From Rhizophagus irregularis (Eukaryota; Glomeromycota; Glomeromycetes; Glomerales; Glomeraceae): DNA of 64,000 bases. Below the pieces are notes generated by a model. The model did no database searches, was not told the origin of the DNA, and was given only the letters and a program-made list of their open reading frames with translations. Below, piece by piece: positions 7,443 to 59,224 of this stretch (positions are counted from its first letter, which is position 1; every line of letters begins with the position of its first letter). The DNA is taken from NCBI RefSeq assembly GCF_026210795.1, contig NC_089455.1, forward strand, positions 1,426,001 to 1,490,000. The letters run 5' to 3'. A program made the position numbers and the translations under genes.

Positions 7443-7451
7443 AACCTTTCG

Positions 7452-8275: not shown

Positions 8276-8830
8276 CACTGGTCAAAATTAATGCTATCGG
8301 GTACATATTGGGTACCTGATATGTGTACAATATATGTGATATATATGTATGATATTTAACAATACTACACATATCGGGTATCCGATAAGTGTAGTAGAAA
8401 TGTAGAAAATCGGTGACATATATTGCAAACATCATATATACATCTTACATATATCGGGTAGTTAAATATTGGTCACATATTATAGACTTATTGGGTACCC
8501 AATATATTATGATATATATCATATATATATTATACAGATATCATACAGATATCAGACAGATATCAGACAGATAGATATAGAATCACTGGTCAAAATTGTG
8601 GTAAACTTGGGTACATATCAGATACCTGATATGTGTATAATAAATGTGATATATGTGTATGATATTTAACAATACTACACATATCAGGTACCTGATATAT
8701 GTAGTAGAAATATAGAAAATCGGTGACATATATTATAAACATCATATACATATCGGGTAGTCAATTGTCAGGTACCCGGTATATTATAGTAAAATATCGG
8801 ATAGATATTATACACTTGTACAATATTTAT
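8276..8830. repeat. Two tandem ~308 bp units rich in GGTACC palindromes
   Basis: Unit 1 begins at 8276 and unit 2 at 8584, both with CACTGGTCAAAATT. Both contain TGATATTTAACAATACTAC, AAAATCGGTGACATATATT and palindromes such as ATTGGGTACCCAAT and TATCAGGTACCTGATA. A single related unit opens the paralogous block at 55348, and diverged relatives are at 26640-26860 and 28890-29310. Confidence 0.8.
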
Positions 8831-9424
8831 TTTATGCAATAATATAAATACTAATAAATCCATAATTTAAATTCAATTATAATATTAATTTATTTAATAG
8901 TACTAAAAGTTTTATTATTTTTAATTAATAATAAAAAATTACAAAAAAATAAAATTACAAAAAAGTATATAAAAATTATTCTAGCCATATAAACAATTAG
9001 AATTATGTATATCTGTTATCTACAAATAATGTGTTCGGTTATTTGCTGCTTATTTTTATCTTTTTAATATTTAAAAGAAATAGAAATAGTAAAGTATATT
9101 AGTAATAATAAAGATATTAGTATAAATATTGTTAAACGAATTTGTAAAAGAAAAGGAATGATATTAGAAATGTAATAAAAAAAAAGAAACATAAAAAATG
9201 GTTAGTAATAGAAAATGTTAGTATATTTAGTAGTAAAATATATTAGTAAAAACAAACATTAGTAGGTTAAAAAAAAAGAAAAGAAGTATTAAAAATATTA
9301 ATAATTTAAATAAAAATTAGTAAAAAATATACCTTTATATTTATTTCACCTTTTTTTGAAATTTGCTATTAAATATATTAATTTATTTATTTAATAAAAT
9401 AAAAAAATAAATATTTAAATTACC

Positions 9425-9670
9425 TTGATATGCGTTACTCCCATATTCTTCTAAAAATACATGATTAGATTTTCTTTTTCTTGAAATTACTATATATAAA
9501 CCAAATTAAACTTTGATTAAATTTTTCTAAAAGAATGTTTAGATTACCTTGACATCTTTTGATTTAGATTTTTTTTTCTTGAATTCGCAGATATAGAATT
9601 ACTATCTTTATGTATAGTATCAAAAAATGTCCGCTCTTGATGTGGAAGATACTTAGGAACCACCTCGTCT
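9425..9670 (-). pseudogene. Tandem micro-exon remnant of an unknown gene (copy A)
   Basis: On the minus strand an open piece reading VVPKYLPHQERTFFDT.. runs into ISANSRKKKSKSKD and a donor (AAG|GTAATC). A second similar exon, ISRKRKSNHVFLEEYGSN, lies between TATATAG and AAG|GTAATT. The two exons resemble each other (N/I-SRK-K/R), so they look like a tandem exon duplication. Copy B at 56230-56500 keeps the same plan (SRKRRSNHISSEEYESN; SRKKNSKSK). Basic, Ser/Asn-rich; family not recognised. Confidence 0.4.
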
Positions 9671-9770
9671 CCCGATTAATGAGACCCTAAGTCAGAGGGA
9701 GGCTAGCCTATCAGGTACAAGTACCCTACAACTTCATCCCTAAGTAGTCAAAAATCTTGGGTGGTTCCAG
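9651..9770. other. Multi-stem structured patch, possible ncRNA
   Basis: An outer stem GGAACCACC (9656-9664) pairs with GGTGGTTCC (9760-9768). Between them are GTCTC..GAGAC, GGTACAAGTACC and CCTAAGT elements able to pair with ACTTAGG. The patch is clearly more GC-rich than its surroundings and conserved in the paralogue at 56487-56603, where the GGTAC stem gains an extra G:C pair. Part of it may instead be coding on the minus strand (VVPKYLPHQ). Confidence 0.35.
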
Positions 9771-10069
9771 ACTACAGCGTACTACATGATTAGTCTTTGG
9801 ACATGTTGGGATTTGATAAGTGAGAGAAAAAATAACTCCAGCGCCATCGTTTTGTAAAGAATAATAAAATAATATTTTTAAGTTAGTTCTTTCTTTAAAT
9901 TTTTGAAAAAATTTTGTTTCTTAAAATCATAATATTGTAAAAAAATGCTGGTTGCTACAACTGACGGACAACGACAAATTGTCAGCAATATTCCTGACAA
10001 AGTAATTGGAAGGCAGAAAATGTCATAAAATATCCAGCCCTATTTCATAACATTTTCCTCCAGGCTAAA

Positions 10070-10260
10070 GCAAATATTACAAAAGAAATTGTAAATATAT
10101 TTAACAAGCAATAGATACATGGCCGTTGAAAAATATATTTACACTTCATATTGTAATACCACAGTCTAACAAAGAAAGACAAGAAATTGCAAATATATTT
10201 AACAAGCAATAGATACATGGCCATTGAAAAATATATTCACACTTATACCACAAAGAAAGA
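10070..10260. repeat. ~100 bp tandem duplication
   Basis: Two adjacent copies of a unit containing AAATATATTTAACAAGCAAT and AGATACATGGCC, diverged by a few bases. The same pair exists in the paralogous block at about 56915-57070. Confidence 0.75.
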
Positions 10261-11015
10261 CTCAAACCACAACATATTGTAAAGAAAAATATGAAAAATA
10301 CGTGTATATCCTATTTTCATACTTTGCTTAATAGCGCTACTATTATTTAAAAGCAGCTTTTCTCTTTTTTGTATGTGGGTAGATTCGTACATTTTTTCTT
10401 TTCTTTTATTCTCTTCTTTCGTATGTGAGTGGTAGGTACATTTCGTGAATAGATATGTCTTACTATGTTGAATATATAAACTAAAGTGGTAAAGTATTGT
10501 TAATATTGTAAAAGATAATTAAAGTATACTTGAATAAAAGAGAAAAGAAGTGACAAACAAAAATACTGTAAAGAAAAGTATAGTATTTTTAATAAGAAAG
10601 AAAAGTGTATCTTTGAAAATAAACAAAAAAAATCACGCATTAGTAAACACAAATTTTATCTATTTTTAGATATCATATGCATATAATCAAAATGATCTTA
10701 ATTGGTTTATATTATTACATTATGCATAAAGATCAATGTGATTTTATTGGTTAATTTTAACCTTACAATAAAACTAAAAAATATTTAACTGATCATTACA
10801 CATACACATATTTTTATTTATCAATTTATTTGAAACATGTTAATAATATCTAAATAAAAAATATAGAGTTAATATTTTTGTTATAGCAATAATTGTAATT
10901 ATATATTTTTGCTATTCATCGATTGTAAAACAAAGCAATTATATTTAAGAGGTATTTTTCTTTAAAAAAAAATGTAATATTTTAAGTCATATTCCTTAAT
11001 TATATTGCAATTATA

Positions 11016-11412
11016 CCTATATTAGTATATCGGTATATGAATATCAGTATATTAAATATCGCTATGTCAACTAAAGACAATACGAATTTCATGTGTAGTT
11101 AATTTTATAAGTTTGTTATCAATCATTTGTCTAATTGTTCGATACTATTCTAAAATGGCGTAAATTAAGATCAAATTAAGTTCCAGTATAATGATATATT
11201 TGACCAGTTATATCAGATGAAAGAATTCATATGTGCTGCATGTGATGGGATGTACATGTTGACTAACTAGACTAACTAATTTTAGTTTCAGGTTTAAACT
11301 ATTAAGAAATGTTTTAGTCAACTATGTTTCACGCTTTTTATCATTTGTATAATTTATTGTAAAATACGTATTCAATCCAGAATTAATCTATAAATTAAAT
11401 TTTCTATTTAAC
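11016..11412 (-). mobile_element. 3' terminal piece of a CACTA element
   Basis: Collinear with 20491-20905, the 3' flank and last codons of the CACTA transposase at 20891-24036. Shared landmarks are CAGTATATTAAATATCG, ATTTGTCTAATTGTT, GGATGTACATGTTGACTAA and, at 11383-11412, the end of the transposase frame (minus strand NRKFNL then stop). Similarity begins at the same point in both, ACCTATATT, which probably marks the element terminus. The rest of the transposase is missing, so this is a fragment or an internally deleted derivative. Confidence 0.65.
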
Positions 11413-11616
11413 AATTAAAATAATGCAAAAGTAATAATAAAAAAAGCAATGAAGTGAAATTTCAATTCTTTATCTAAAATATGAATAAATTTAATTATTT
11501 GCCAATCAACCCTTCTATAATTCTTTAATATTCTTTAATAAGTACAGCTAAATTAAATGAATCATAATTTTAATAATAAAAATTTAGAATAAAAAAAAAA
11601 TAAATAAATAAAAATT

Positions 11617-12074
11617 ATTGCCGTTTTCAGAAATGTTGACATTAGAATATCGATCATTTCTATAAATCGAACACACCGAACACATACCGAACACAGCAAT
11701 TAAAATTAAAAAAAAACAAATTTTCCTTTAAAAAAAGCAAAATTAAAACTTTAGTAATATATTTTTAGGTAGTGTGCAAAAAAAAATGTATAAAAATTAT
11801 ATTATTTGCATATATGTATTCACTTGTATTTGCTTGTATTTGCCAATGTTCGGTGTGTTCGGTGTGTTCGTTTGTGTTCGGTGTGTGTTCGGTACAAATT
11901 TTCATATTTTCAATTTTATTCATATCTAAAAAGTGACAAAAATAGTTTTTATATAAAGTTATGCATGAATACTTCAAGTTTGCATAATTTTTTGTATGTG
12001 TTCACGGTGTGTTCGGTGTGTTCGGTATAAAATGGTCAAAATTTCAGATTGTCAACATTTCTGAAAACGGCAAT
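11617..12074. mobile_element. 458 bp MITE with TGTTCGG arrays
   Basis: Inverted ends of ~24 bp (ATTGCCGTTTTCAGAAATGT left, its complement right) and 5-bp direct repeats AAATT at 11612-11616 and 12075-12079. Subterminal arrays of CCGAACAC at the left and TGTTCGGTG in the middle and right form an inverted set of likely transposase-binding motifs. No coding capacity. Confidence 0.8.
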
Positions 12075-12370
12075 AAATTAAAAAAGTTTATAAAATAATA
12101 AAATATAATGATTAAGTCGCATGGGAGGAAATAATCGTCCCCAAGAACATAAAATGATTACTCCTATTGCTTTAGACTTAATCAAAAATTCTTTTTAGAC
12201 TGTTCTTTTATTTTGTGACTAAGTAAATTACTTTATCAAATTTCAATTCAGGAGTCGAAAGTACCTACCATGAATTACTTGAAAAATAATTCAGAAATTT
12301 ACCCTATCAAACATAAACAGCAAAACAATCTTCAAAGAAAATTTCGTATTTCTAATTTTATTTATGATTT

Positions 12371-13368
12371 CTATTCCAAAAGATCTTCATGTCTTAAACC
12401 TCTTCGTCCTTTTATCAAATCTAAAATAATTTACAAATTAGATATTTATTTATTTAAAAAAAAACAAACAATAAAAATATATATTTACCATCTTTGTATC
12501 TTCTTTTATCTGTTGAATTTTCTGATGATTCCTCCTCAATTTGAAATTGTTGTGCTTTTTTAAGTAAAATTCGTTTTGGATTATGACCTTGAGAATTATA
12601 AAGATCTTGTATTTTAATGATTGTATCATTATCATTATTTTTATGAAAATCCTCAAATTTTTTAGATAAAAAATTCGCATGCACAAAATAAACTATACTG
12701 AATCTTATCCCTCTAATAATCGGAAGGTTGCCATGTAATAGCAAATAAGAAGGAAATGCAACAATTTGTTCTGGTTTTAATTTTACCAGGATTTGAAGTT
12801 GAGGAAAACATAATTCGCCTTCCTCAAAATCTCCCAAAGCTACCAAAAAACAAAGTCCATTTGGATCATCATTACTATCCCAATGGTAATTACTGATTAC
12901 GTTAAAATTAATAGCTATTGTGGGAAAAATTCCAAAAGTTCTCGGTACAAATGGTCCCATTGTTAACTTGCTTAGTTTTGTATAATAATGTTCATAATAT
13001 TTGTTAACAAATCTGTTTACACTATTTGATATTGGTTGTAGTGCAAAAAGTAGATCGTTAACGCAATTCTGATGATCAATATTATGAGAGCTGGCAGTAT
13101 CAGAAGTAGTATATGGAAGATCACCATAACTAATGAAAGCTCCAAATCGTTCAGCAAGATTTTTCCAAAAACTTCTACTTCGATGGATTGGATTGTCCAA
13201 CATATGAAAATAATAACTATTTATGGCTTTGGTTGCTTCAATGACAGCATTAAAATCATCAAGTCCATCCAGATGAACCAAAGTTTTACCACAACCATCA
13301 ACAATACATTCAGAATTTGTTACATAACGAAAGTTCTTAATATTATTATCTTGTGCTGATACAATCAT
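12371..13368 (-). CDS. TET/JBP-like 2-oxoglutarate/Fe(II) dioxygenase
   Basis: 309 codons in two exons (13368-12489 and 12420-12371, intron 12421-12488, GTAAAT..TTTTAG), ending LRHEDLLE then TAG. The double-stranded beta-helix signature is visible: HxD at H162/D164 (NYHWDSND), a glycine-rich turn LGDFEEGELCFP (178-189), the distal iron His212 in LLLHGN, and the 2OG-binding Arg222 in GIRFSIVYF. This arrangement fits the TET/JBP family, which oxidises 5-methyl pyrimidines in DNA and is expanded with transposons in fungi; other DSBH oxygenases are possible. All metal ligands are present. The start at 13368 overlaps the stop of the next frame in an A9 run, so the real protein probably continues upstream (13365-13796). 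Confidence 0.65.
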
Positions 13369-13796
13369 TTTTTTTTATTTATAGTTGATTTTTTTTTCTC
13401 AATTTCTAAAATTTCTTTGGATATTTCCAAAACTTTAGAATTTCGAATTTCAGCAGCATGTGAAAGTCTCTTCCATTGTGATTTAAGATGTTGATGTACA
13501 TCACTTTTACTAATTGGCTTTTTTAATTCCAACCATTGACCAAATTTAATCCACATATTATTATTATTGTTCATTAATTGATCATTAGTTGATTCAGTAA
13601 TACTTTTAGCAAGATTATAAAATTCTAAGGGAATTTCAGGAATTTCATTATTATTTTTAGATTGTCTTGATTCCCTTATTAAGCATTCAATTAATAAATC
13701 CATTACTGAAATATCTTTCATAATTGAAATTGTTGTTACATTAGAAGATATTTGGCAAAAAGCGCAAAGCGGAACACTTGACCATTCATTTTTCAT
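13365..13796 (-). CDS. N-terminal part of the dioxygenase gene
   Basis: 143 codons from ATG 13796 (MKNEWSSVPLCAFCQ..) to a TGA that overlaps the ATG of the dioxygenase frame by 4 bp. The overlap lies in a run of nine A residues, so a one-base slip or sequencing error would fuse the two frames. Contains a CAFC pair, an alpha-helical middle (KFGQWLELKKP) and a Lys/Glu-rich coiled-coil-like tail. No family recognised for this part; it is assigned to the dioxygenase by continuity only. Confidence 0.5.
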   Translation of the reverse strand: MKNEWSSVPLCAFCQISSNVTTISIMKDISVMDLLIECLIRESRQSKNNNEIPEIPLEFYNLAKSITESTNDQLMNNNNNMWIKFGQWLELKKPISKSDVHQHLKSQWKRLSHAAEIRNSKVLEISKEILEIEKKKSTINKKK

Positions 13797-13884
13797 ATAT
13801 CGAACTATATCTGAGGTACTAAATTATACAATATAGATTATTTTATTTATATTTTATATTTTATGACATATCAAAGATAATATA

Positions 13885-14197
13885 TACCTGCAAAGGATTA
13901 AATACTATGTTTGTTTTTACTTCAACAGGCGAGGAGGAACTAACAGATGAGGAACTAACATCATCTTGAGTTTGTTGCTTAATTATAAATTAAAAAAAAA
14001 AAAATTGTCTCGTTAAATTACTTATTTATATAAGTATTAGATCTAGTAGTATATAAATGGATTATCATCCTGATTCATTTATATATTAAACTAGATCAGT
14101 AAATCATCCAGTTTATAAATGATAATATCATATACCTCTATAAGATCAAAAGCTATTGTTTGAGAAGAAGAATTCGTATCTTGAACTTGCTGTTTAA
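13885..14197 (-). other. Putative upstream exons of the dioxygenase gene
   Basis: Two similar minus-strand exon-like pieces, each starting from a TTATAATTAAACAG/TTATAATTAAGCAAC context and ending at a GTATAT donor: one reads QQVQDTNSSSQTIAFDLIE (14197-14139), the other QQTQDDVSSSSVSSSS to FNPLQ (13978-13888). They look like a duplicated exon. The frame into 13796 does not join cleanly, so the model is unfinished. A short foldback around GATCTAGTAGTATATAAATG sits between them. Confidence 0.35.
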
Positions 14198-14349
14198 TTA
14201 TAAAATTCTGATATTAGATTATAGTGGAATTGTTTATATTTTTAGAAGTAAAATGAAAAGTACCATAGATGTCTTTTGTAATCGTTTCTTTGCATTGTAT
14301 TTGGTACTATGTCTTGAACGTTTCATCTTTTTCTTAAAAAAAGCTAAGT

Positions 14350-15190
14350 AAGTCTAAAGTAAAGGATAAACCCAAGGAACAAAATCAAGATAACAAACCC
14401 AAAGAATAAAATCAAAAGACAAACTAAAGAATAAAATCAAGGTAAAATAAAATAAAGTTAATAAGGAACAGAACAAAGAAGTTAAAATAAATGAAAATAA
14501 TAAATTTACATGTTTTAAAATCAACTGGAAGACTGAAATATCATAAAAAAAGAAACATTAAAAGAATAAAATGCAAGAAATAGAAGGATTGGAGCGAAAA
14601 AAACTTACTGTGTGAACGTTCTTAATAAAAATAAATAAATATCGCCACCGGTCTAATAATGAGGTACTAGTCATACTCAATATGTCACTGATTTGCAATA
14701 TTGATATCTAGGCTTGGCGCAGATCGGTTACATAAGAACACAGTATGAGATTATTCTAACCATATATCCTAATTTACATATTTATAAGTATACTTCTCAT
14801 TTTCAAATGCCGTAATATTACGGCACAATGCCGAATTGCAACGTAATTCATTTATACTGACATAATTAGTCACGGGAAAAATGTTCATCAAATGTACATC
14901 GGCCACTTGATGTATATCATAAAGAAATGCTGACCTGCAATGTACTACCGATGTCACAATATTTGATGTTCATCGCCAATTCAAAATGTTCATTACCCAT
15001 ACATTACGATGTACATTATTTTAAAGATAATAAACATCATATCAATATTTTACTATTATTTATATATGTTAATATAACGATGCTAAATATTATTGAATAA
15101 CAAATTATTTTATTAAATTACACTATATTAAACAATCTATATACATTAAATTACACTATAACAATCTATATACTAAAGTCTATTAAATTA
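14350..15190. other. AT-rich spacer
   Basis: No gene seen. It contains a perfect palindrome TGCCGTAATATTACGGCA near 14808 and short direct repeats of AAAGAATAAAATCAA (14400-14450). Confidence 0.5.
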
Positions 15191-15356
15191 ACTCAATACT
15201 CTGGGACAAAGAAAAGTTTCGAAGTTATTTTTCGAAACTTACCAATCTTCGTGTCCAGGAAATACAACCTATGATAAAAAGATAAAAGTATTAATAAAAA
15301 AAAATTAATTTAATTAAAAAGTTTCGAAGTGAAACTTCGAAACTTACCAATCCGTT

Positions 15357-15382
15357 AAGATTCGTATATACTTACGAATCTT
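15357..15382 (-). promoter_or_regulatory. Hairpin spanning a 5' splice site
   Basis: AAGATTCG and CGAATCTT (8-bp perfect stem) flank TATATACTTA. On the minus strand the exon ends ..AAGATTCG and the intron begins GTAAGTATATACG, so exon and intron bases pair across the donor. A second copy of the same arrangement is at 15485-15509. Confidence 0.6.
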
Positions 15383-15436
15383 GGTTCCTTCTTTCAGTTC
15401 TTTGGAAACCCACCCAAATCTATGAAAAAAGAAAAG

Positions 15437-15455
15437 GAACGGTTAGTAACCGTTC
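15437..15455 (-). promoter_or_regulatory. Hairpin containing the branch-point motif
   Basis: On the minus strand GAACGGTTACTAACCGTTC is a perfect stem-loop whose loop side carries TACTAAC, the canonical fungal branch-point sequence, about 20 nt before a CATAG acceptor. Equivalent hairpins lie at 15555-15576, 15684-15701, 15821-15838 and 16157-16177. Confidence 0.6.
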
Positions 15456-16863
15456 ATAATATTAAAAAAAAGAAAAAAAAAACTAAGATTCGGAATACTT
15501 ACGAATCTTGGTTCCATTCGTCGGATGTTTACCCGAACCTATAAAAGAAAGAAAGGAACGGTTAGTAAACCGTTCCATAAAATAAAAAAATAAATAAATA
15601 AACCAAGATAAGAATTTTGGTTCTAACAAAATCACCTTCCTCCATCCCCCTTTCTACGCGTTCTACAAAAAAAAATAATTAAAGAAACGTTAGTTCGTTT
15701 CTCATATTTAAAATAAAAAAATTCCCCTTTTTCCTGTTCTTACTACCTTAAAGTAGTCCATCGTAGTATTCAAGCCGGCGCCCTTCTGGTACGCATCCTA
15801 CAAAAAAAAAATAATGAAAAGAAACGTTAGTTCGTTTTTTAAGTTTAAAATAACAAAAAAACCCCCTTTTCCCATTTCTCACTACCTTAAAGTCCAGTTT
15901 CGTTTCAAGCTGGATTAAGATATATCAGGTTCATCCTCGTCGTCATATGCTTCTGTACCTTACTGGAGTCACCATTACCAAACACTTCACCGATCCCATC
16001 ATGAGTTATAACGTCTAATTATAAGTACAACCTACAATAAAAAAAAATTAATTTTAAAAAAAATTTTTAAAAAAAAGTTTCGAAGAGAAACTTCGAAACT
16101 TACTTGAAAAGCTGATCCAAAAAATCTTAAAGACAATTCCTACAAAATAGACAAAAGAAGAAACGGTTAGTTTCTTCAAAACAAAATAAAAAAAATTTCA
16201 AGAAATGTTTCGAAAGTAAACTAAACTTTCGAAACTTACCGATCATATCATCCAGAGTTCAGAAAGTTCAATACCTGCAAAAAAAAAGAAAAAAAATCAA
16301 AATAAAATCAAAATAATAAAAAATCAAAAATAAATAAATTTAAAATTTCAAAACTTACCAATTCATTGCCGACCTACAAAAGAAGGCCCCAACGTCGAGA
16401 AATCCAACCGAAGTCCAAGAAGTTAATATCCGAAGTCCAAAGCCGAAGGACCGATATCTACAAAAAATAAGAGAAAAATTTTAAAAAAAACTTTTTTTAA
16501 AAAAAAACACATGCACGTCACCCTACTTACATACCTGTCAGTTCGTCTAATTCCAAGAAATTGCCTAATAAAATGATGAACCGGACTTTCTTTTAATTTT
16601 TTATTTTTTTTTTTCTAAGTGTATTAAAAAACATTTATAACGAAATGTTAACACTTTTTTTTTTTAAAAAAAATATACTTTATGAAGTCAGGTTCAAGTA
16701 AAGATATTTTTTTTTATTAGACTTTTTTTATCGAATTGAAAAAAAAAGATCGATCGGCAAACTGATTACGTGATACAATTTTTTTTTTTCTTTCTTTTTT
16801 TAAAAATCACATCTATTATAGCACAATTTTTTTTTAAAAACGTTATTACGATGTAAGAATATA

Positions 16864-18175
16864 TTACGATGTAGAGGGAGGTGCAACACCTAAATAATTA
16901 TATTCTCCAACATTTTCTGGTACATAATCTTTATCAATATGTGGTGTTATAGGATTTGTGATTAATGTAAACTTGTGCGTTTTCTAGTGATATTCATTCT
17001 CAAAAGATCCTTCGACAAAACATTCTTCACATAGAACAACTTCAAGACTTTCATCACATTCATTAAAAAGATATCGTGTTCCAATTATTGGATCCATATG
17101 ACATCCATCACAACAAAAACCATAATGCACTGGTCCCGTAATAAAATTACACATCTGTCGTATATCATTGTCCTGTGGGCGATCCACTGACATCATTACA
17201 TTCTTGATACTACTTTCATCATCAACATCGGGCATATAAACTGTTGGTAGTGGTCAAGCTTCCAAATACGATAATCCAGATATCCTCAAATGTCGAGGTT
17301 TTTTTCGGAAGGTAATATCGATTTTGGTCCCAGTTTTTTTATTCTTTGGTTGTGAATTTTTGTTGTTGCTGCCGCAAACCTGCTAGCCACCTGCTTTGGT
17401 GTTCTTGTTCCTAAAGCTTCAGAAATTTTCTAAATCGCAAGTAATTCTACCAGTTGACGTTGTTCTTCATCCGTCCAAGGTATATTATAATTTCCCGTTT
17501 TTGGCGAACCTTCTGATAATTTGAGATCACTAGATTTCTTTTTATTATTTCTTCAATTTGATGATGTTAAAGTAGGTGAATAACTCTGCTTGCAATAGTA
17601 ATAGGAGTATTAAACATTGATCTATTTGAAACTGCACTCGCCGATTCATTTCTTATCTCCCCTCTTTTTTAACTGGTGTGCTATATAATGACTGTTTTCC
17701 TTTTTTATTTGACCCAATGCTCTGTGGAAGTGTGTTATCATCAAAAACTAGGTTAGTTTTCCTTTTAGTACAAGTTAACAAAACCGTATTTGGGGGAACT
17801 TTAACTTGAGCTTTTTTATGAACAAATTCAGCGGGATCAGGTGATTTTTCATCATCACTTGTTGATGACTTGGAAACTTCTCGCCCTGGACGTGGCGGTG
17901 GCTTATACTGTGAAGGTCGGGTATGATATTTCCAATCGACTTGTGGAACACCAAATATATACTGGCGTTCGGAAATTTTTTCATGGGTCCCATCGCGCAA
18001 TTTTTCAATAAACATTTCCAGATCTGATAGAGCACGTTATTTTATATCTTTTATTTTTTGATATCTTCTTTTGTTTGTTCAAGTTGAAATTTAAGTACAT
18101 TTACGGCTCTTAAAACCATTTCATAATCTTCATTCCCATTTAATAAAGTTTCTTCTGTAGAAATTTCTATTCAGT
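16864..18175 (-). pseudogene. Myb/SANT + ZZ zinc-finger protein, ZZZ3-like (broken)
   Basis: Domain order matches the ZZZ3 family, a chromatin-reader subunit of the ATAC histone acetyltransferase complex in animals. A helical N-terminal part leads into RALSDLEMFIEKLRDG and VPQVDWKYHT (~18030-17930), then a basic linker, a Myb repeat (IPWTDEEQRQLVELL.. ALGTRTPKQVASRF, ~17495-17375) and a ZZ finger (HYGFCCDGCHMDPIIG .. LCEECF, ~17140-17005), ending PPSTS and stop at 16864. Damage: TAG at 16984-16986, stops in the Myb region near 17430 and at ~17260, further stops near 17640 and 18040, and frame changes. The broken state is seen; the family is inferred from motif order. No intron was needed to follow it. 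Confidence 0.65.
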
Positions 18176-18179
18176 ACAA

Positions 18180-20040
18180 CGTTACTGTATGTGTAATGGC
18201 TTTAGTATGGAAGGAGGTAATGGTATTACCAAACTAAATAAAGATTTATTTTATAGATTTTGTATATTCTCTTAAAAAAACGATTAAAATAATAAATAAA
18301 GAATTTTTTTTTTTTTAATAAATCTATTTTTTTTGGTTTTTTTTTTAAACCGAAATTTAAAAAAAAAATTTTTTTATTCTGGTATAGAAAACAGCTACTG
18401 ATTTCTTCCTATTTGGTATTGGTTTTGTACTTTGTAAAAATGTATTACAGTGTACGAATAAAGTTAATTACTATGGAGTAGTGTCTAAATGATCATTGAA
18501 ACACTTACCCAGTATATTCTTTTTTGGTTAGATTTTACTAGACAAATTAACTTCGAAAAATTTATATTCTTCTATTTATTATAGATTTAGATTATATATA
18601 AAATTATGATTTTTTTTGATTTATAAATTTATTCTTAATCCTCGATTCGATTATAGATTATAGAGTAGAGCTTATTCTCTTTTTTATCAAATTTGCACCT
18701 TATCAGTTATAAATAATTTTTATCCAAAAAAAAATAATAATAGATATTGATAAACATTACATCATGAAAAACAATTACCTCATTTTTACTCTTAAAATGT
18801 ATTAATAAAAGGTATACATTTAGTTTAGTATATACTAAAATTTTTTATTTTTTTTAGATTTTGTTACAGAATACTTAGTTATAGGATTTAATCTTTTTTT
18901 TGGATTAGGCTCTAAGTATTTTTATATAATTATGTAATTTTTACTAATAAATAATTAATAAAAATGCGTTACTATTTAAAAATAAAAAAAAAAAAGAAAT
19001 TTGTAGCCGTAATTATTATGGCATATTACGTCAGGTATAATGCCTTTTTCCTATTCTGTAATCTGTGAGATGTTTTACAAATACCTTTTATGAATTTTAT
19101 TAAAGGATTCTATATTATTTTTATTTTTATATGTTCCCATAAAGTTCTCGAGTTAAGATCTTCAAAACACTTGCAACGTATATTCTTTTTTAGTTGGATC
19201 TGCCTGGCCAAAATAGGAAAAAATATGGTAATCGATTCAGATTCAGATTCAGATTCCTATTCCTTTTCGATTTCTATTTGGATTGAATCTTAAATTATAT
19301 CGCCCCACCCTTCCTCATGGGAATATGGGTCTTATAAATAAAAAAAAAATTTTTTTTTTTTAAAAATTCATTTTTATTTGTTTGTTATACAAGTAAAAAA
19401 AAATTTGGATTATCGTTTTCGATTATTTAAACCGGTAATAAATTGCAAAAAGAAAAAAAATTTTCTTTCTTGCAATCAACTCCTTGTAAATTATAAGGGC
19501 CTGAACCATTTTAAGAAAGAATTAAATTCCCATTTTTCATACTTTTTTTTCATTAAAAAAAATAAATGTCTTTGTAAATTATTAGAAAAAATATTTTTTT
19601 TTTGTTTATAAAGATGTAAGATTTAACATGTATTTTTTTTAAGATGATGATTTGGTAATTTCATATTTCTCTATAAGGAAATATGAGATATAGGGATTTT
19701 GTAAAAAAACTAATGAAAAATGTGTGAGATTTCTTTTTCACTGTCATCTCCTTGTGATTATAGCGAAGCCACTTTTTTTTCATGAGAAAAAATTTGTATT
19801 GCTTCGCATTCCTCCTTTTTTTTCTTTCAAAATAAACAAATCGTAATATTTAGAATTTGGAAGCTTTAAAAAATAAAGCTATAAAACTCACAACATTAGA
19901 TTATTCATTTTTTATTACATTCCACTAAAACTAAAAACAAAAACTCAATTATCTGTTACATCCATGAGTCTACCGAACATTTAACGCAAAAATACATCAT
20001 AAAGGAAGTTATAGTTGTAATAAGATTAAATGATGCTGAC
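18180..20040. other. AT-rich intergenic sequence
   Basis: Long T and A runs, no convincing exon. A partial duplication is visible (ATATTCTTTTTTGGTTAGAT near 18515; ATATTCTTTTTTAGTTGGAT near 19180) and a short ATTCAG tandem at 19229-19250. Confidence 0.5.
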
Positions 20041-20445
20041 CTGACGGGGTGGTATACTTTAAAGTAACTCAAATTGAAGATTTTGAAGAAGGATATGTGG
20101 TGTTCTTAAGAACGAAATTCGTCACCAATGAAAAAGATATGATGAATAGTATATCAAATCGGGATAGAAGATGAATTAAAAAAGGGATTACAACTAAGAA
20201 GTCAGGACGAGCTGATAAATGAAAATGGGATTTCAAACCACGGGTGGACTAATTTGAACAACCGCGTATCTGGAACGTTGAAAGACGAATAATATTTTGA
20301 TGCGACGAATAGTTGGTAATGGTGAGAAAATAGAATTGGCAGGTATTGTAGGTAAAGAGAAAGATAATGTGTAGTTTGTATCAATGTATATAGGAAACGT
20401 ATTGCGAAAACTCAAGCCACTAGATATCGATAATTCTCAGCACTA
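20041..20445 (+). pseudogene. Unrecognised coding-like remnant
   Basis: Less AT-biased than its flanks and protein-like over ~130 codons in one plus frame with several stops (KVTQIEDFEEGYVVFLRTKF .. ITTKKSGRADK .. WDFKPRVD .. FEQPRIWNVERRIIF). I do not recognise the family. It lies just outside the CACTA terminal repeat that begins at 20491. Confidence 0.3.
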
Positions 20446-20490
20446 ATAAAGTCATTGTTTAAAAAAATATAGATACTTCTTTATTCGACC

Positions 20491-20890
20491 ACCTATATTG
20501 ATATATCAGTATATTGAATATCAGTATATTAAATATCGGTAATATCGGTATATCAATCATTTGTCTAATTGTTTGATACTATTCTAATACGGCGTAAATT
20601 AAGATCGAATTAAGATCGAATTAAGTTCCATTTACGGTGTAGATTAATATCAAATTAAAAGATCTAATTATCTAATTATGTATAACTCAACATATATACT
20701 TATCCACTATAAGAAAAGTAATATCAGTAATTTCAGTATAATGATATATTTGACATACCTGTTATAGTGCTGCATGTGAGGGATGTACATGTTGACTAAT
20801 AAGACTAACTATTTTTAGTTTCAAGTTTAACTATTAAGGAATTTTTCAGTCAATTATGTTTGTAAAAAACATTCAATCCGGAATTAATAT
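20491..20890 (-). repeat. CACTA 3' subterminal region
   Basis: Non-coding stretch after the transposase stop, with iterated CAGTATATTGAATAT / CAGTATATTAAATAT motifs and a duplicated TAAGATCGAAT. Collinear with 11016-11400, which fixes the probable element end near 20491. Confidence 0.6.
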
Positions 20891-23800
20891 TTATAAATTA
20901 AATTTTCTATTTAATGGCATTATTGATATATAATTTTGTTTACCAACTCGAATATTTCTAATTTTTGTGGCTCTACACAATATTCTATGAACCGCTATTA
21001 GTGAATCACAACCTTCCTCATAGTATTCACCCTTCCATAATTCAGTGTTTGATAATTCTGGTTCTATAAACCTATGTTTAAACCAAATATCAGAGGAAGG
21101 TGCATTCTTATACCATTTGACATGCCAAAAGATGAGTTCTTGACCCTTCAGGTAACCTAAGTGTATGTTCAAAGTAATATTGAACCTCTCCTGGATATAT
21201 GTCAATTGTTTCATCACTAAATGCTTTCCATTTCGCAAGAATAGTTGAATTTGTTTCATGACGACCTGCAATTACAGATCCAAATATTTCTGAGCCAATT
21301 TGTAATCTTGCATGCTGGTTAATTTGTAAGTCCATAAATCCTAATATTTCATCATGATCTTTCTCATACAACATTTCATACCATTCACATAGAAACATTC
21401 GCAATTCTGAAGGAATAACAACTCTTAAATATGATGGTTTAAGCAGTTGACCTGGTATTGCTTCAGTACCATATATTTTAGATGTGCTATGTCTCATGGA
21501 TAGGAAATATTGTAACTCTTCTCTTTCTGCTGTAAGTGCCAAACTACCTATATAGGACCATAATCACGACAGCAATCAGGAATGTGAAGCGAAAGATGTA
21601 TATTACTTGTTATGAATTCTGGTCCATATGTGTTTTCTATAAGGTAAGCCATATCTTTTAATCTCTCTTGTGCTTCTTTTAAATCATCTTCAGTAATAAT
21701 TCTTGTTACCAAAAGATTACATGCTCGAACAAAATATCCTAAAATCTTTCTGTCATTATCATCTAACATATCCCACAAGATAGCTGTAGAATAAATCATA
21801 ATAAAGGTTTTCCATTGATCAGCAGTTAAGTTTGAAAATCCATCACTTCCAATCGCAATTTTTGGAGGAATACGACCAATATCAGAAGGTAATTTAACAT
21901 GATCCATTCTATTTTGTGCCACTCGAAGTTGTTCCATACTTAATTTTCCCTGGCTCACAAAAATAGATTTAATTATCCATTTTGCTACACCAAGAAAAAG
22001 GCAATGCATTGGATCTACTACAGCAAAACGTATGGGATCCATATATGGAAGACGAAGCAATTCAGACCAGCGTATACCATATTCTTTAAAATAATTTTCC
22101 CTAGAATTTTTTGAGTTGCATTGCAACCATTCATATGCATGTTTTCTATGTGATTCTGCGTTACTCAACTCATAGGTATGAACTCCTCCATAGTGATTTT
22201 TTCTATACTCTTCACTATAAACACTACGTTTCTCACACCTATGGCATTTCATTAATGCAGATCCATGTCCAAACAACTTTCGTGTGGCTGGTATATCTGA
22301 TGATCCAACAATTAATGCAACTTTAATGTCTAGACCATCAGGATAATGGTAAGTTTTTGGAACTCTCCAGCCCCTCCAGAGCTCTAAAAGCTCGTCTACA
22401 ATAGGGGCTAAATAATGATTAATACGATCTAATCAAAACCCAAATATATAATATTTTCAGGTTTATTCCTTTCTGATCTTGGTAAGTTACAAATAGATGC
22501 ATATATAGCACCTGTACTGTGTTGTGTATATGTAAATGGCTGAAACCAGTCAAGGTTAACAAGAAGACCTAAATTGGTTGTGGCAGTTTCTGATGTAAAA
22601 AATGGACTACCATCAAAAGAAAAGGTTTTCCACACATTACCATCATAAATATCTGAATAGATATTAACTCTTTCTCTTTGAACTCCTGATAATTTTAGCA
22701 TATCTTCAAAACCAGGTCGTTGGTATAACATACTTAATTGTTGACGAATACTTGGTTTAGGGTAAATCATACGAGGTTCAGCAATTATTCCACTTTCTCT
22801 TTTTTTAAGAATAGAAAGTGGATTATTGCATTTATTACGACGACTGGGTACTGGATTATTTGGAAATTCTTCATGTAGGCGATTTGCAATAGCAGTTTTT
22901 CCTTCTTCTTTGTATTCGACAATATTTTTAACATTATATAATTTATGACAATTGTTACATACAGTTAACTGCATTTTTGGTTGAAAGATATTTAATATTT
23001 TTTTTGCAAGATATAAGGATGCTGGAAAATTTTTAAATTGTGATTTATTTAAACGAGTAAGTACAATATGTAAGAATTTTATTAATGCTTCAAGTGCCAC
23101 ATCAGGTAATCGAAATCTTTGTTGAAATTTAAATAACCATATTATAATCTCAGTATTAATAGAATCACTTAAGCTTTCCATTACAAATACTTCATCATTA
23201 TCAAATTCAGGAGATGCAAAAAATTCTTCTATATCATCCTTCTCCTCCTCATCATTTCCATCATTATCATCATCTTCTTCTTCATTATAATCACCTTCAT
23301 CTTCACCATCATTATTCTCAGCACCATTATTTTCATCACCATTATCCTTATCACCGTCATTCTCATCACCGTCATTATCACTATCATCCTCATCATCATC
23401 ATTTTCTTCTTCTTCTTCATTGTAATATATATATTCATCATTATCCTTATTTTCATCAGGTGCTGGAATATGAAAATAAGAAGGATTTGGCAAGTATGGT
23501 GATGATGAAAATAATGTATGTATGTTTTCATTATTATTTGATTGGGATGAATCAGTTTCTTCATTGAAAAGATCAAAGACATTATTTTGTTGGAAAGAAT
23601 TAGGATTAGGACTTAATGCCCTTTTTCGCTTTTTTGTAGGGTTTGCATCTTGAATAATGATGGATTTTCTTTGTTTTCTTGCTATAATAGTATCTGCCTG
23701 ATTTTTTCTAGCATTCTCTAAGTTCCATAAATTTTTCTCCTTTGTGTGATCTTCTTGAGTGCGAAAATCAACCTTTGTGCCATTACAACGAATACAAAGA

Positions 23801-24036
23801 CATGGATACAGGTACCTTTTTTTGGATTTTATCAAATCGACCATCTTTGGTTTTTTAGATTTTATTGAATTATCCATTTTAGATTTTATTAAATAGGATA
23901 CAGAGGCAGATGATTTAACTTTACTTTTTTTTGATTTTATTAAATCAGACACAGAGGTTTCAATTTTAGTTTTTTTGGGTTTTACTAAATCAGACACAGA
24001 GGTAGAGGTAGAGGTTTTACTTTTTTTATTATTCAT
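20891..24036 (-). pseudogene. CACTA/EnSpm (Tnp2-type) transposase, decayed copy
   Basis: From ATG 24036: a basic repetitive N-terminus (SVSDLIKSKK repeats), a CLCIRC pair, a long acidic Asp/Glu/Asn tract (residues ~200-285), then the Tnp2 core with NLDWFQPFTYT, a KCHRCEKRSVYS finger, the hallmark VVDPMHCLFLGVAKW and the conserved DCCRDYGPI. Compared with the better copy at 61389-64000 it has lost ~25 bp near 22435 (frameshift after IIYLGF) and ~255 bp near 21545, which removes the SFWLFPFERLNGYIG segment and the intron; another frame change is at ~21110. DDE transposase of a cut-and-paste element; non-functional here. A divergent accessory gene starts 385 bp away at 24421. Confidence 0.8.
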
Positions 24037-24114
24037 TTTATTAAAATATATTTATTAAAATGTAAGTGTCAAGAAAGTTAAAGTTACAATTACTTAAATG
24101 AAGCTTATTTTTCA

Positions 24115-24290
24115 AAATCAGGGTTCGCGTTCAACACCTTTTGAAATCCAGTTACACATTCAATTCTTTCAGGGTCACGTTTTCTTTCAAAATCAGATTC
24201 GCGTTTAATTCTTTTTTAGATTAAAATTAGTTCGCGTTTAATTCTTTTTTTAGATTAGAATCAGTTCGCGTTTAATTCTTATTCACGCAT
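24115..24290. repeat. CACTA 5' subterminal tandem repeats
   Basis: Four or five diverged units of the form TTCGCGTTTAATTCTTTTTTAGATTA.. about 33 bp apart, in the gap between the divergent transposase and accessory genes. Iterated short motifs of this kind are typical subterminal binding sites of CACTA elements (established), here placed between the two promoters. Confidence 0.6.
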
Positions 24291-24420
24291 CCTATCATAA
24301 CATTTGCGTATTCATGTTTTTCATGTCTTTATGATTCTGAAATCAATATAAATTTACACAAACCCTTTTCTCCTCTTCTCAATCAAAATTTTATATTTCT
24401 ACTAAAATATATAAGTAATA

Positions 24421-26382
24421 ATGGATAGTGATCGGGAATCTAATTCTTCTTCTTCTTCCACTTCCTCTTCCTCTTCTACTTCTTCTTCCTCTTCCTCTTC
24501 CTCTTTATCTTCGTCTTCATCATCATATAAAATGATTAAAGCAAGTATTATTTATTATAATTTATTTATTATTTCTGGTTTTTTTTATTTTATTTATGTT
24601 TGCCTATTATTCTATAGCAAGAAGTGTTTATATGGGTCGACTCAGAACTAAAAGATATCTATAAAATAGACGAGAAACTAACTTGGGTCGAACAAAAGGA
24701 GAATATAGTTACGAAGCTACTGCCACCTCTATATAAGATTGTAAATAAAAAATACAGCATTACGAATAGAAAATTATTAAAAATGTTGTATAGACGGTGG
24801 CGTTCTAGACATTGTACAAGTAATATCAAAAATCAAGGAGATGAAAGAGTTAAACAAAACAAGAGAAGATCAAGTAAAAATTCAAGAATGCAAGAGGTAA
24901 GTAAATATTTAATTAATATGAAATAGAAATTTAGTTAACTTTAATGCATTTTATAATTACATTATTAGAAGAAAAAAAGAAGGGCGCACGCAACAAATTA
25001 CTTAATAGAGAATAAAAATAAATATATTCTCAGATATCCAGAAGAGGATCTAGTAAAGATTCTTAAGGATTCAGGTTACCACTCAGAAGAGTGGGAAGAA
25101 ACTGATCCTGAGGAAGAATGGCCTATTACGCAATCTGCAGTAGTTGAAGATGATGAAATTATTGAGGAAGCTATAAAACAAAAGTCATCATCAATATACA
25201 TTCATAATAAATGGTGGCGTTCTCCTGCAGTATGTATAATTTTTATTTTATTTGTTTTATTTATTAAAAATATTTATAATAATTTATTTATTTAAGCTTT
25301 TGAGATTATTACATGACTGAATTGATCCAACAGTTGAATTATTAAAAAAGAAACTATTAACTTTAAAACGTAAAAGAGCTCAATCAAGTCAATCAAGATA
25401 CAATACATCTAACGTGTTACCCATAGGTGTACCAAGTTAGTGTTTTAATCAGGATGCACTTGAACAATTTAACTATTCAAATGTCAATATTCCAGTATAT
25501 GACTATAATACTGATGATCAAGATAATACAGTAACACCTCCCTAAGTGCATACCTTCAGCCCCTGACTATGCGTACGTGTACTTAGGGAGGGTGTGCATT
25601 TATAGAACAGCCAATAGAAAAATAGATTTTGTTACACAATTAGGTTTCTGACAAAAATTTTTATTTATAAGTTTTAAATTTTTTTTATTAAACTCAAATC
25701 CAAATAAAACAACATATTTTGCGAAAATTTAGTGAAAATATGTGTTAATGTCAGTTTGCCGCATTAAACTATTTTTTTTGGCCCTAAAAAATTTTTCAAT
25801 CTTTCCCACTATCTGTCTCCTTAAAAAAAAATGTTCTTGCTATACTAATTTGGGATAATTGATCAAGTAAGATGTTCACACGCTTGTAATTTACTCCAAT
25901 TCATCTATAATTTAATTGATGATGTTATAGTAGTTGGTACTAACGAATTTCATAGTCAAATGTAATTGCTTGTAACTACAAAATAAAAGTTTACTGTTAT
26001 ATAGTTCGCTATGATTTCACTTCTAAATTGATAAATTAAATTAATTTAAAAATTAACCGTTATCAATGATTGGTCAAAATTTTGCAATAGTCACGTGAAT
26101 GCATTTATGGAGGGTATTCTAATATACCCGGGACTCAGATTTGCTTGCACGTGCAGAACATAGAGGGAGTGCACTTAGCTCTAAGTCCCGAGCTTAGGAT
26201 CAAGCTATGGAGTGCATATAGAGAGGGAATGCACTTATAGAGGGTGCAGCTTATAGGGGTGTTACTGTAGTGATAATGATATTGAAGATGAAAATAATAA
26301 TGAAGAAGAAATTCAAAACAGAACAAATTCTAGTAAAAAAAAAATCAAATCAAAAAAAAATAAGAAACATAAATCAAAATAA
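24421..26382 (+). CDS. CACTA accessory gene, split by a MITE
   Basis: Exon 1 from ATG 24421 codes MDSDRES and a poly-Ser run. The next piece, from about 24618, reads EVFIWVDSELKDIY .. RRWRSRH; after a third intron come YLRYPEEDLVKILKDSGYHS-type sequence, the acidic EEWEETDPEEEW and WWRSPA; the last piece has KRKRAQSSQSRYN and an Asp/Asn/Lys-rich tail ending at TAA 26380-26382. Removing the MITE at 25529-26267 plus one TA restores one frame across the breakpoint (DDQD|NSDNDIED). The exon 1-2 phase does not match and in-frame stops lie near 25318 and 25438, so the gene was already decaying. No family is recognised; placement opposite the transposase suggests a TnpA-like DNA-binding helper (inference). 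Confidence 0.5.
25529..26267. mobile_element. 739 bp mariner-type MITE
   Basis: Ends CAGTAACACCTCCC / GGGGTGTTACTG with TA at 25527-25528 and 26268-26269. The CAGT terminus and TA duplication are the Tc1/mariner/pogo pattern. Subterminal TAAGTGCA/TGCACTTA motifs recur on both sides. Non-coding. Inserted in the last exon of the CACTA accessory gene. Confidence 0.85.
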
Positions 26383-26639
26383 TTCTTTTTTTTATGTAAT
26401 ACTTGTTATAATCTAGTCTTAAATAAGTTTACTTTATTGGATTATATAATAAATTGAATGATTAAACTTTAGATCGAACAGATCTAATCTGATTTGATCT
26501 GCATAAAACCAAATATTAGCTAACATTTAGCAAAACAATGTATTTTGTTATATTTTATTTATTATAAGCTTATAAAAAATATCGAAATAGATTAATTAGA
26601 ACAAAATTTTAATTAACAAACATGTAATTTCAAAATATT

Positions 26640-26860
26640 ATTTAAATTAAAAAATCATACACATATCGGGTATTATATAACATATTGGTAACTAATAATT
26701 TAGATATCGGACACCTGGTAACCAATTAGATACATATCGGGTATATATATATGCATATTAACAACATATTAGGTATCCAATTTGATTTCTAATTGCGCAA
26801 AATTATATATAGATACCTGATGTATTTTCATGTGGTACTGTCTGATATTCATTTTTGGTT
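26640..26860. repeat. GGTACC-palindrome repeat, diverged
   Basis: Carries ACACATATCGGGTATTATATAAC, ATATTGGTAACTAATA and ATATCGGACACCTGGTA, all recurring at 28890-29310. Relatives of the units at 8276-8830 and 55348. Confidence 0.6.
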
Positions 26861-27093
26861 ACTAGAAAGCATTATTTATTGATTTATATAGCTAAGTTTA
26901 TCATGCTCTTAATCTTTAGATTATCAATTATAACGTCATGATTTTCTAAAAAATATTATAAAATAATGGTTTATTCCCCAATTTAACATTTTAACATCAA
27001 TTTTTTTTTCTTTTTTTCATAAGGGTTTTTTTTAAAAAGATAAAATGTACGTGTTTTTTATTTTTTTTCCTACATTTTTTTATTTCTATTAAA

Positions 27094-27829
27094 ATGTACA
27101 AAAAAAACCATGAACCTAATATTGAAAAACCTGAAAAAAGTAGGACGTTTCGTTACGAAGATGAAAAAATTGAAAAAACTGATAAAAATAAGATATTGTT
27201 GTTAGAAGGCTCAAAAGATCGCAAGTCAAGTTTATAAAGATGGAATAAAGGAAATTTATAAACTTACTGTTGACGCACTTAAAAAGAATGATTCGTAAGT
27301 AAAATAATTAATATAAAAATATAAATAAAAAGAAATTCCTAAATATAATTTTAAATATATTTTTTAGTTATGAAACAGATAAATATATTTCTTCGTTATC
27401 TCATATTAGCAATATTAGTAAGAAATTTTTAACAATTCACTTTCGAGAAAAAACGTCCTATTAATTTAGTTATTAATATAAAAATTTCCATTATATTTAT
27501 TATTAGTAACAACAGCTGCCAAGCACCAACAACCACAACAATCACAACAACAACCACTACAACCGTTACACCAGTCTAGTATTTATTAATTTAATACGAA
27601 ATTAAAGTTTATAAATTATCTAATGACTTATTATATAAAAATTTTTAAAATTACAAAAACAGGTGATTCATCAAAAATTTTTTGTTTATATTGCTATGGC
27701 CCACATTGGCTAGTAAATTGTCACCAAATACCTCCAAAATATAGGGGAAGTTGTATAAAGTGTTGGAAAAGTACCAGGCACCAAGCAAAGGATTGTAAAT
27801 CTAATAGACAGAAAGAGCCTTGGCGCTAG
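27094..27829 (+). pseudogene. Small CCHC zinc-knuckle protein gene
   Basis: Exon 1 starts MYKKNHEPNIEKPEKSRT and after a frame change near 27205 continues IASQVYKDGIKEIYKLTVDA to a GTAAGT donor at ~27295. A second piece reads YETDKYISSLSHISNISKK. After a Gln/Pro-rich stretch the last exon has two knuckles, CLYCYGPHWLVNC (C-x2-C-x3-H-x4-C) and CIKCWKSTRHQAKDC (C-x2-C-x5-H-x4-C), ending PWR at 27829. Zinc knuckles bind single-stranded nucleic acid and are common in Gag-like proteins, but there is no polymerase next to it. At least one frameshift; the exon chain is only partly secure. Confidence 0.45.
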
Positions 27830-27999
27830 AGCTTTTTTTTTATAATTTTTGTAAGTAAAATTTTAAAATTATTATTACTAATTTTTTGAATCTAATTATT
27901 TAACTTTTTTCAGATCAGATCGGCTGAAATTTTTTTTAATGTTTAAGTGGGGCAGCCAATTTCTTTTTTTTTAAGTCAGCAAAAATTTTTTTTTTCTTT

Positions 28000-28140
28000 A
28001 GTCCAATTGTGATTGGACTTAGTTCGATTGGGGTCGAACAGTATTCTGATTGTGGTCAGATGTAAAATTTTTTTTTTAGTCCAATTGTAATTGGACTTAG
28101 TTCGATGGGGGTCGAACAGCATTCTGATTGTGGTCAGATG
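28000..28140. repeat. Tandem triple-hairpin cassette
   Basis: Two copies (28000-28062, 28078-28140) of a 63 bp unit made of three back-to-back perfect inverted repeats: AGTCCAAT/ATTGGACT, GTTCGA/TCGAAC and TCTGA/TCAGA, with loops of 4-6 nt. Each copy is preceded by a T-rich tract ending in AG, as in a splice acceptor. No coding match. Function unknown. Confidence 0.7.
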
Positions 28141-28444
28141 TTCTTTTCGTAATATATTATAATATTCAATAATGTTTTTTTTATATTTTTTTTATCGTAT
28201 GAATAATTTTTAATATAATTTTTTTTAAAAAAAAAATAATAAAGTTTTATAAAAATTCCGTATATTAGGAATTATTTTGTAATCACAATACATATTTTAT
28301 TTTTAAAAGAACTTTTATATATAAAACCTACTAAAACACGATCTTTAGCCATGTCACATAAGAAATTGGTGTATTCAATATTAATGTAACGTTTTTTTTT
28401 AAGCAATGTACTTATAAGAATCAACATTTATATATATATATAGT

Positions 28445-28770
28445 ATCAGTAAAAAAAGAAAGAAATGTTAGTACGTTTCTTTAATATTAAAAAGAAACCC
28501 CCTCCTCCTCTATTTCTTACATTTCAAGTCTAAGTTTATTCAAAAAGTCTGAAAACCTAAAAAAAAACAAGAAAGAAATGTTAGTACGTTTCTTTAATAT
28601 TAAAAGGAAATCTCCCTTCTATTCCTTACTATGTTTCTTTAAAATTAACAAAAAGTTCTTCTCCCCTTCTCTATTTCTTATTACATTCCAATCCAGGTTC
28701 GTTCAAAAATCTAGTGAAAAAAAAAGTCCCGTTATTCTACAAATGAGAGATCCAGCATTCTAAAAAAAAG
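28445..28770 (-). other. Stem-loop micro-exons, second cluster
   Basis: On the minus strand, exons GTTTTCAGACTTTTTGAA.. (28553-28518) and ATTTTTGAACGAACCTGG.. (~28712-28687) lie between T-rich acceptors and GTAAGAAATAG / GTAATAAGAAATAG donors. The introns carry AAAGAAACGTACTAACATTT-type hairpins at 28459-28482 and 28572-28595 with the CTAAC branch motif. Same design as 15190-16565. Confidence 0.5.
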
Positions 28771-28889
28771 AATAAATATATATTTAAACGATCTTAAAGA
28801 TTATTAATGATCAGTCAGGTGACTGTCAATTAGATTTTAACCAATAAGCCTTAGATTTATCTCAAAAAAAAAATGAAATTATTAGAATT

Positions 28890-59110: not shown

Positions 59111-59224
59111 ACAAAAAAATTGGTGTATGGCAGTCTGCCAGATGATCAGTAATTGAAAGGGACCAATAAATTAATTAGCATAACGAAAACAATTTTTAAG
59201 AGCATTGGATATCATTTAAGGATC

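Follow-up and report, generated by a model that had tools for sequence, protein, structure and literature searches.

Within a 64,000-nucleotide stretch of the Rhizophagus irregularis genome (the window), a CACTA-type transposon carries an array of mini-exons and short predicted introns whose donors and branch sites lie in or beside small hairpins. The array occupies 15166..16534 on the minus strand and sits inside an element of 21,034 bp at 8276..29309 (-). We favor, with moderate confidence, the reading that such arrays are transposon-borne strings of mini-exons, with local hairpins kept at the splicing signals of the predicted introns and acting in the transcript.

The hairpins were first counted on the minus strand of 15190-16565, a hairpin being defined as a perfect stem of at least 7 pairs with a loop of 3-12 bases and at least two G/C in an arm. 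Ten were found, whereas 300 dinucleotide shuffles averaged 0.62 and never gave more than 5; stems of at least 10 pairs numbered five, compared to a shuffle mean of 0.03 and a maximum of 1. All ten hairpins held a donor or branch motif or lay within 8 bases of one, and the hairpins of this region are real and non-random. The original prediction had named eleven hairpins at donors and branch motifs, and ten proved to be perfect stems of at least seven pairs within one or two bases of the positions given; the eleventh, at 15821-15838, fell below the cut-off, with about five pairs by eye. A stricter control required the motif to lie entirely within a perfect hairpin of at least 8 pairs. By this measure GTAAGT was enclosed at 2 of 8 occurrences in the region, compared to 0 of 15 and 0 of 19 on the two strands of the remaining window, and ACTAAC at 3 of 5, compared to 0 of 15 and 1 of 15.

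Two predicted introns of the window array, both set by hand and called by a consensus scorer, carry a hairpin at each signal. In the 100-nt intron at 16140..16239 (-), with its donor G at 16239, the donor hairpin lies at 16207..16235 (stem 11, loop 7) and the branch hairpin at 16157..16177 (stem 8, loop 5). In the 83-nt intron at 15420..15502 (-), with its donor G at 15502, the donor hairpin crosses the exon-intron border at 15481..15513 as a stem of 15 with a mismatch and a perfect core at 15485-15509, and the branch hairpin is at 15437..15455 (stem 8, loop 3). The remaining donor hairpins, also on the minus strand, are at 16075..16101 (stem 11, loop 5; donor G 16103, intron 16103-16032), 15319..15345 (stem 12, loop 3; donor G 15347, intron 15347-15269) and 15214..15240 (stem 10, loop 7; donor G 15242). 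Further branch hairpins on this strand lie at 15683..15702 (stem 7, loop 6), in intron 15746-15663, for which the scorer placed the donor at 15743, and at 15555..15576 (stem 9, loop 4), in a hand-set intron, 15603-15539, with a weak donor. A donor-type hairpin at 15357..15382 (-) surrounds GTAAGTATA at 15375, a donor that, as read by hand, has no acceptor of its own ahead of the next donor at 15347. The expectation that each intron would pair a donor hairpin with a branch hairpin held in part: by a net stem of at least 7, two of the nine hand-set introns (16239-16140 and 15502-15420) have both, four have one, and three have none. The consensus scorer, which uses sequence only and demands GT, branch, pyrimidine tract, and AG in order on one strand, left 15603-15539 uncalled, moved three donors 3 to 4 bases beyond their hand-set positions, and added an intron at 15963-15910.

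A whole-intron covariance model, built from 16 rows picked for good hairpins from 20 listed, was then run on the window; its pair counts are no independent evidence because the rows were chosen in this way. It added two more units with branch-type hairpins in the same transposon at 28444..28629 (-) (E 0.02 and 0.032), as well as matches at 46935-47007 and 58892-59096. The match at 46935-47007 (+) is a lone branch-type hairpin, GGAACGTTTACTAACGTTCC, ahead of a TATAG acceptor (E 0.018). The match at 58892-59096 (+) belongs to another, dispersed family of arrays, in which hairpins of the exon-intron type surround GTATGT and those at the branch have the form AGGGAACGTAATTAACGTTCCCT. Among the 40 of 116 candidates scored, the second family (58780-59160) had 14 further copies at 96-99% and one at 87%, along with many related tandem units, mostly at 69-77%.

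The stem types were searched as palindromes through 146,748,485 bases on 32 contigs of R. irregularis. The donor palindrome GTTTCGAA..TTCGAAAC occurred at 526 places, compared to 5 for the control, and the form starting at GTAA, GTAAGTTTCGAA..TTCGAAAC, gave 143 + 162 = 305 strand matches, compared to none for the reversed control. The branch-type palindrome GAAACGTT..AACGTTTC was present at 882 places and the exon-intron type ATTTCGAAG..CTTCGAAAT at 240, with no occurrence of either control. In 238 strand matches of the exon-intron type, GTA followed the exon arm directly. By our own count among the matches listed, 13 of 87 exon-intron places were matched on both strands, and GGTA was present on at least one strand at 46 of the first 50. 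The three counted stem types each contain a self-complementary core, TTCGAA or AACGTT. For the stem types tested, the genome as a whole thus supports the architecture foreseen for the window, in which stems differ and their arms nonetheless match at the splice signals.

We next described the predicted introns of 29 array loci, of which 24 were chosen for holding the donor palindrome and 5 for resembling the window array; branch hairpins played no part in the choice, and near-identical copies of the window array as well as three shorter duplicates were left out. The scorer called 217 introns, 214 of them distinct, with length quartiles of 77, 85, and 93 nt. U2-type signals (GT, branch, pyrimidine tract, AG) were present in order in all 217, as the scorer requires. 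The mini-exons in measured runs were 16-53 nt, and the array introns had a median of 85 nt. The arrays L001 and L004 have exons of just 25-26 nt or so (e.g. GGAATCAGTATAACGAATCCTATAG) in units of about 95 bp.

A donor hairpin with a net stem of at least 7 was found in 166 of the 214 distinct introns, a rate biased upward because of how the loci were picked, by donor palindrome or by resemblance. The stem began at intron base +2 to +4 in 137 of these 166 and more than 3 bases inside the exon in 17. Two types can be distinguished: in type I the stem begins at about +3 and includes the AAGT of the donor, and in type II the end of the exon is paired with the start of the intron, so that the donor lies in the loop or close to it. 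Branch hairpins by the same cut-off were present in 106 of the 214 introns and ended 13-21 nt before the intron end (5th-95th percentile). The likely branch A of these 106 occupied the loop in 42 cases and one of the first two positions of the 3' arm in 60; in the other 4 it lay elsewhere. Hairpins in these arrays keep to the splice signals: of 192 with stems of at least 8, 112 were centered on donor segments and 77 on branch segments, together 189, and three were mid-intron. The donor and branch segments make up 63% of the array bases, and no such hairpin was centered in the 4,335 exon bases or the 1,751 bases of pyrimidine tract of the array loci. Scattering without relation to splice sites, the outcome that would have told against the original prediction, did not occur.

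The carrier could be delimited at both ends. The window element has the ends CACTGGTCAAAAT and, in reverse, CACAGGTCAAAAA, and is flanked by a 3-bp target duplication, TTA. Such duplications were present in all four copies of the large transposon read at both ends (TTA in the window, ATA on C8, TAG on C14, and ACA on C31); a further copy, on C9, was read at one end only. The terminal inverted repeats, of the form CACTG../CACAG.., are CACTGGTCAAAA and CACAGGTCAAAA. CACTA terminal inverted repeats begin with CACT or CACA. Among the matches listed for the repeat that holds the window array are another seven copies at 96-98% and an eighth at 83%. Two ORFs on the minus strand gave weak Pfam matches, one at 21548..22432 to Transposase_21 (Tnp2; PF02992, 24.4 bits compared to a cut-off of 28.6, E 1.9e-5) and one at 12454..13374 to the Tet_JBP oxygenase (PF12851, 27.3 bits compared to a cut-off of 34.9, E 2.5e-6). 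A zinc-finger-like stretch was seen by eye near 17300-16880. About 300 bases in from one transposon end and 220 in from the other lies an additional copy of the end motif CACTGGTCAAAAT (8276-8596 and 29076-29309). Some 457 bases at 11618-12074 of the window copy are missing at that point from three copies read across it (L018, L019, and L020).

Three shorter elements of 5.1-5.5 kb, L041-L043, are filled by arrays. They have CACAGGTCGAA-type ends, the right one of L041 differing by a single base, and target duplications of TAA, AAA, and ATA (3 of 3), so that a 3-bp duplication was present in all seven copies of either size with both ends read. No transposase-like ORF of at least 110 aa was seen by eye in L041-L043, and we class these elements as non-autonomous. 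The 401 bases upstream of the L041 array (3380-3780) had a near-full match at at least 40 places (40 of 153 candidates scored). Near the right end of L041 is a tandem repeat of about 52 bp (6815-7676), which is broken at about 7247-7526 by a palindromic insertion with the ends CACTGGTAAAAAAATG.

The joined exons of the arrays carry no coding signal. Protein-coding mini-exon genes were considered and rejected for most arrays, as stops in the best frame were about as frequent as in shuffled exons in 17 runs, with p above 0.1 in 16; the other run, in L021, gave a p of 0.04, uncorrected for 17 tests. Exon lengths modulo 3 were 0, 1, and 2 in 50, 31, and 43 of 124 exons. Three 33-nt exons of L042 are open, and shuffles equal that (p 0.33). 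The arrays, being high-copy and probably non-coding, may lead gene predictors to make false genes of them in this genome.

In the tandem arrays, the units are repeated with their exons included. For two sets of joined exons searched in this one genome, every match covered a single exon (50 of 50 and 25 of 25), and none crossed a junction by more than 2 bases (0 of 50 and 0 of 25), so that no uninterrupted site was seen. Processed copies were considered as proof of splicing; none were found among the joined-exon matches, and their absence proves nothing. At 9 of 10 apparently isolated hits, there was no recognizable host gene. The tenth, L069, lies upstream of a broken gene fragment whose 70-aa ORF matches RRM_1 (PF00076, E 9e-7) and resembles splicing factor SF3B4; the intron of L069 separates array-like exons and not the RRM reading frame. 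In L069 (about 45-260 and 650-740), the fragment follows the array-type intron and exons directly, and it was perhaps caught or hit by an element.

Introns elsewhere in this fungus offered a comparison. In 15 introns from 6 of 9 chaperonin loci, crudely called and some perhaps not introns, the net stem never exceeded 6 at the donor or 5 at the branch. For three introns situated at the Tet_JBP ORF or ahead of it, the donor net stems were 3, 8 (from 17 pairs that include mismatches), and 2. From this small sample, the hairpins do not seem to be general to splicing in R. irregularis.

Covariation was examined in 137 distinct donors anchored on the outer AGTTT..AAACT alone, with rows not picked for pairing. 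Inner pairs 3-7 were Watson-Crick in 130 of 137, 116 of 128, 88 of 116, 71 of 107, and 44 of 61, all above the respective maxima of 500 shuffles (93, 108, 60, 50, and 36), although the shuffles overstate the significance because the donor rows are related. At both CpG positions of the donor stem, with 95 and 101 of 137, covariation did not exceed that of the shuffles (maxima 99 and 106). Isolated mismatches in the anchored donors comprised 43 G-U, 29 A-C, and 9 other (G-U versus A-C, p=0.12). A separate count gave 38, 23, and 6 for donors and 13, 15, and 17 for branch hairpins, and pooling the anchored donors with the branch hairpins gave 56 G-U and 44 A-C (p=0.27). The stems have thus changed on both sides in the past, and their present decay consists mostly of transitions, without a clear bias toward what RNA tolerates. 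Strong selection on pairing in RNA would make A-C much rarer than G-U, a contrast that the 43 and 29 seen do not clearly show; this is a point, though not a decisive one, against the hairpins acting in RNA. Since the inner stems covary but G-U is not clearly favored over A-C, we grade such action, judged from these sequence patterns, as likely.

Recent copies gave a second view of variation. When the window copy was compared with seven near-identical ones, variant sites outside CpG numbered 1 in 162 stem bases, 18 in 523 exon bases, and 18 in 545 other intron bases (Poisson p ~0.025 for stems versus exons). CpG variant sites numbered 7 in stems and 14 in exons; the non-CpG counts alone were taken as evidence, because CpG is more frequent in exons than in the T-rich spacers. 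Per-base difference among young copies was 0.0248 in exons, 0.0124 in other intron, and 0.0115 in stems. Exons were less alike than intron spacers in five of six overlapping paralog comparisons, the exception being L041 versus L043 (0.751, 0.737).

Predicted folds of whole arrays gave the perfect hairpins mean pair probabilities of 0.78 in the window (10 hairpins), 0.52 in L041 (16), and 0.77 in L042 (26). Donor bases +3 to +6 were mostly paired in the L041 and L042 folds and less so in the window, where they were unpaired at 0.31-0.42; for +4 to +6, the unpaired values were 0.00-0.03 in L041 and L042 and 0.31-0.35 in the window. The first two bases of CTAAC were mostly open in all three. It had been suggested that the hairpins might bring the splice sites together, but the folds have a separate local hairpin for each signal. 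The L041 array is predicted to fold often without the hairpins, which again counts against a role in RNA.

We infer from the sequences that the arrays are transcribed and spliced, have grown by duplication, and are under selection in RNA, with the hairpins serving as clasps. A CACTA-type lineage would carry tandem arrays of mini-exons and short introns, which would spread by transposition of whole elements and grow through duplication of exon-intron units. Acting in the transcript, the hairpins would let every short intron fold alone; the donor would be clasped until opened by U1 or a helicase, and the branch site would be presented. Such clasping could ensure that each donor meets its own branch site within a string of near-identical introns. 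Both CMC-EnSpm and Plavaka elements are described as expressed in R. irregularis in PMC8647823 and PMC11075540. In yeast, according to PMC12350175, stems less than 10 nt from the 5' splice site or less than 20 nt from the branch point are modeled as unpairable in the A complex, and the array hairpins would therefore have to open.

Other explanations must be weighed against this one. Chance hairpins in AT-rich introns are refuted, given ten hairpins where shuffles average 0.62 and genome counts of 526, 882, and 240 compared to controls of 5, 0, and 0. The strongest competitor, which we regard as possible but clearly the less probable, is that the palindromes matter as DNA, either kept or re-made by mutation, such as template switching that perfects quasi-palindromes, or serving as binding sites for a transposon protein, with an ancestral unit having placed them at splice signals. 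Near-equal tolerance of G-U and A-C transitions fits this explanation, as do the location of the arrays with borders read in DNA transposons and the self-complementary TTCGAA or AACGTT in the counted stems. It sits poorly with the finding that two unlike arrangements, intron-only and exon-intron, both place a palindrome at the donor, and with the lack of hairpins of at least 8 pairs centered in exons or pyrimidine tracts. Moreover, transposase sites are expected at element ends, and the arrays are internal, away from those ends.

That the hairpins instead hold splicing back, hiding strong donors from U1 so that transcripts are largely unspliced or spliced conditionally, strikes us as unlikely. 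Donor bases +4 to +6, nearly never unpaired in L041 and L042 and unpaired at 0.31-0.35 in the window, suit such a role. Against it, CTAAC has its first two bases mostly open in those folds, donors of type II are located at the loop, and the upkeep of near-consensus donors, tracts, and acceptors would be left without a clear reason. The original prediction had proposed an introner-like family, and mobile introns that insert singly would account for the many similar introns in one genome. Inverted-repeat structure is likewise described for fungal introner-like elements and for Amoebophrya introners in PMC8469720 and PMC7789003, respectively, and the isolated hit L069 adjoins a degenerate RRM-protein gene fragment. 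The units and their exons nevertheless recur together in tandem arrays on CACTA-type transposons, the joined-exon matches include no uninterrupted exon pair, the isolated hits bar L069 lack a recognizable host gene and L069 itself has array-like exons on both sides of its intron, and the 15 chaperonin-locus introns have no such hairpins. The proposal of an introner-like family is accordingly not supported, and introner behavior retains a small probability because just 10 isolated hits were sampled.

The preferred reading, of transposon-borne arrays with hairpins acting in the transcript, can be extended, tentatively and with more doubt than confidence. A lineage of transposons would carry non-coding mini-exon strings in which donor and branch each have a hairpin of their own, reached in two ways (intron-only and exon-intron), and the array, not a protein, would be the selected cargo of the non-autonomous elements, for example by keeping transcripts well spliced and out of RNA silencing.

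Hundreds of predicted introns here have a hairpin exactly on their splice sites, whereas in yeast, as reported in PMC12350175, structure is depleted at canonical splice sites. If the arrays are spliced, they would be a natural library for how U1 and U2 handle structured sites and would also test how neighboring near-identical introns avoid swapping partners; otherwise, one would have to ask why transposons retain perfect palindromes at splice signals. Literature searches, covering listings and passages, turned up no account of splice-site hairpins for either this fungus or CACTA elements.

The carrier resembles the CACTA elements (EnSpm/CMC, Plavaka) of R. irregularis in its CACTG../CACAG.. 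ends, 3-bp duplications, and weak, sub-threshold Tnp2 and Tet_JBP matches, and differs from them in its mini-exon arrays with hairpin introns; Plavaka is reported as prevalent in this fungus in PMC11075540, and the terms "intron" and "splic" do not occur in the main text of PMC8647823 or PMC11075540. The fungal introner-like elements and symmetrical (stw)introns of Hypoxylaceae (PMC8469720) share with the arrays many similar introns and an inverted-repeat structure, but there long inverted repeats join both intron ends at new gene sites, while here each signal has a small hairpin within tandem transposon arrays. The introner elements of Amoebophrya, as described in PMC7789003, are alike in their palindromic motifs of 8-20 nt around splice sites and differ in that the 5' and 3' intron ends pair together, with many non-canonical sites and flanking direct repeats, compared to the GT-AG borders, local hairpins, and arrays found here. 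Yeast has zipper stems and downstream intron stems, which are also among the nearest known systems; the zipper stems lie between the two signals and clear of both, whereas in these arrays the signals are inside the hairpins or touch them.
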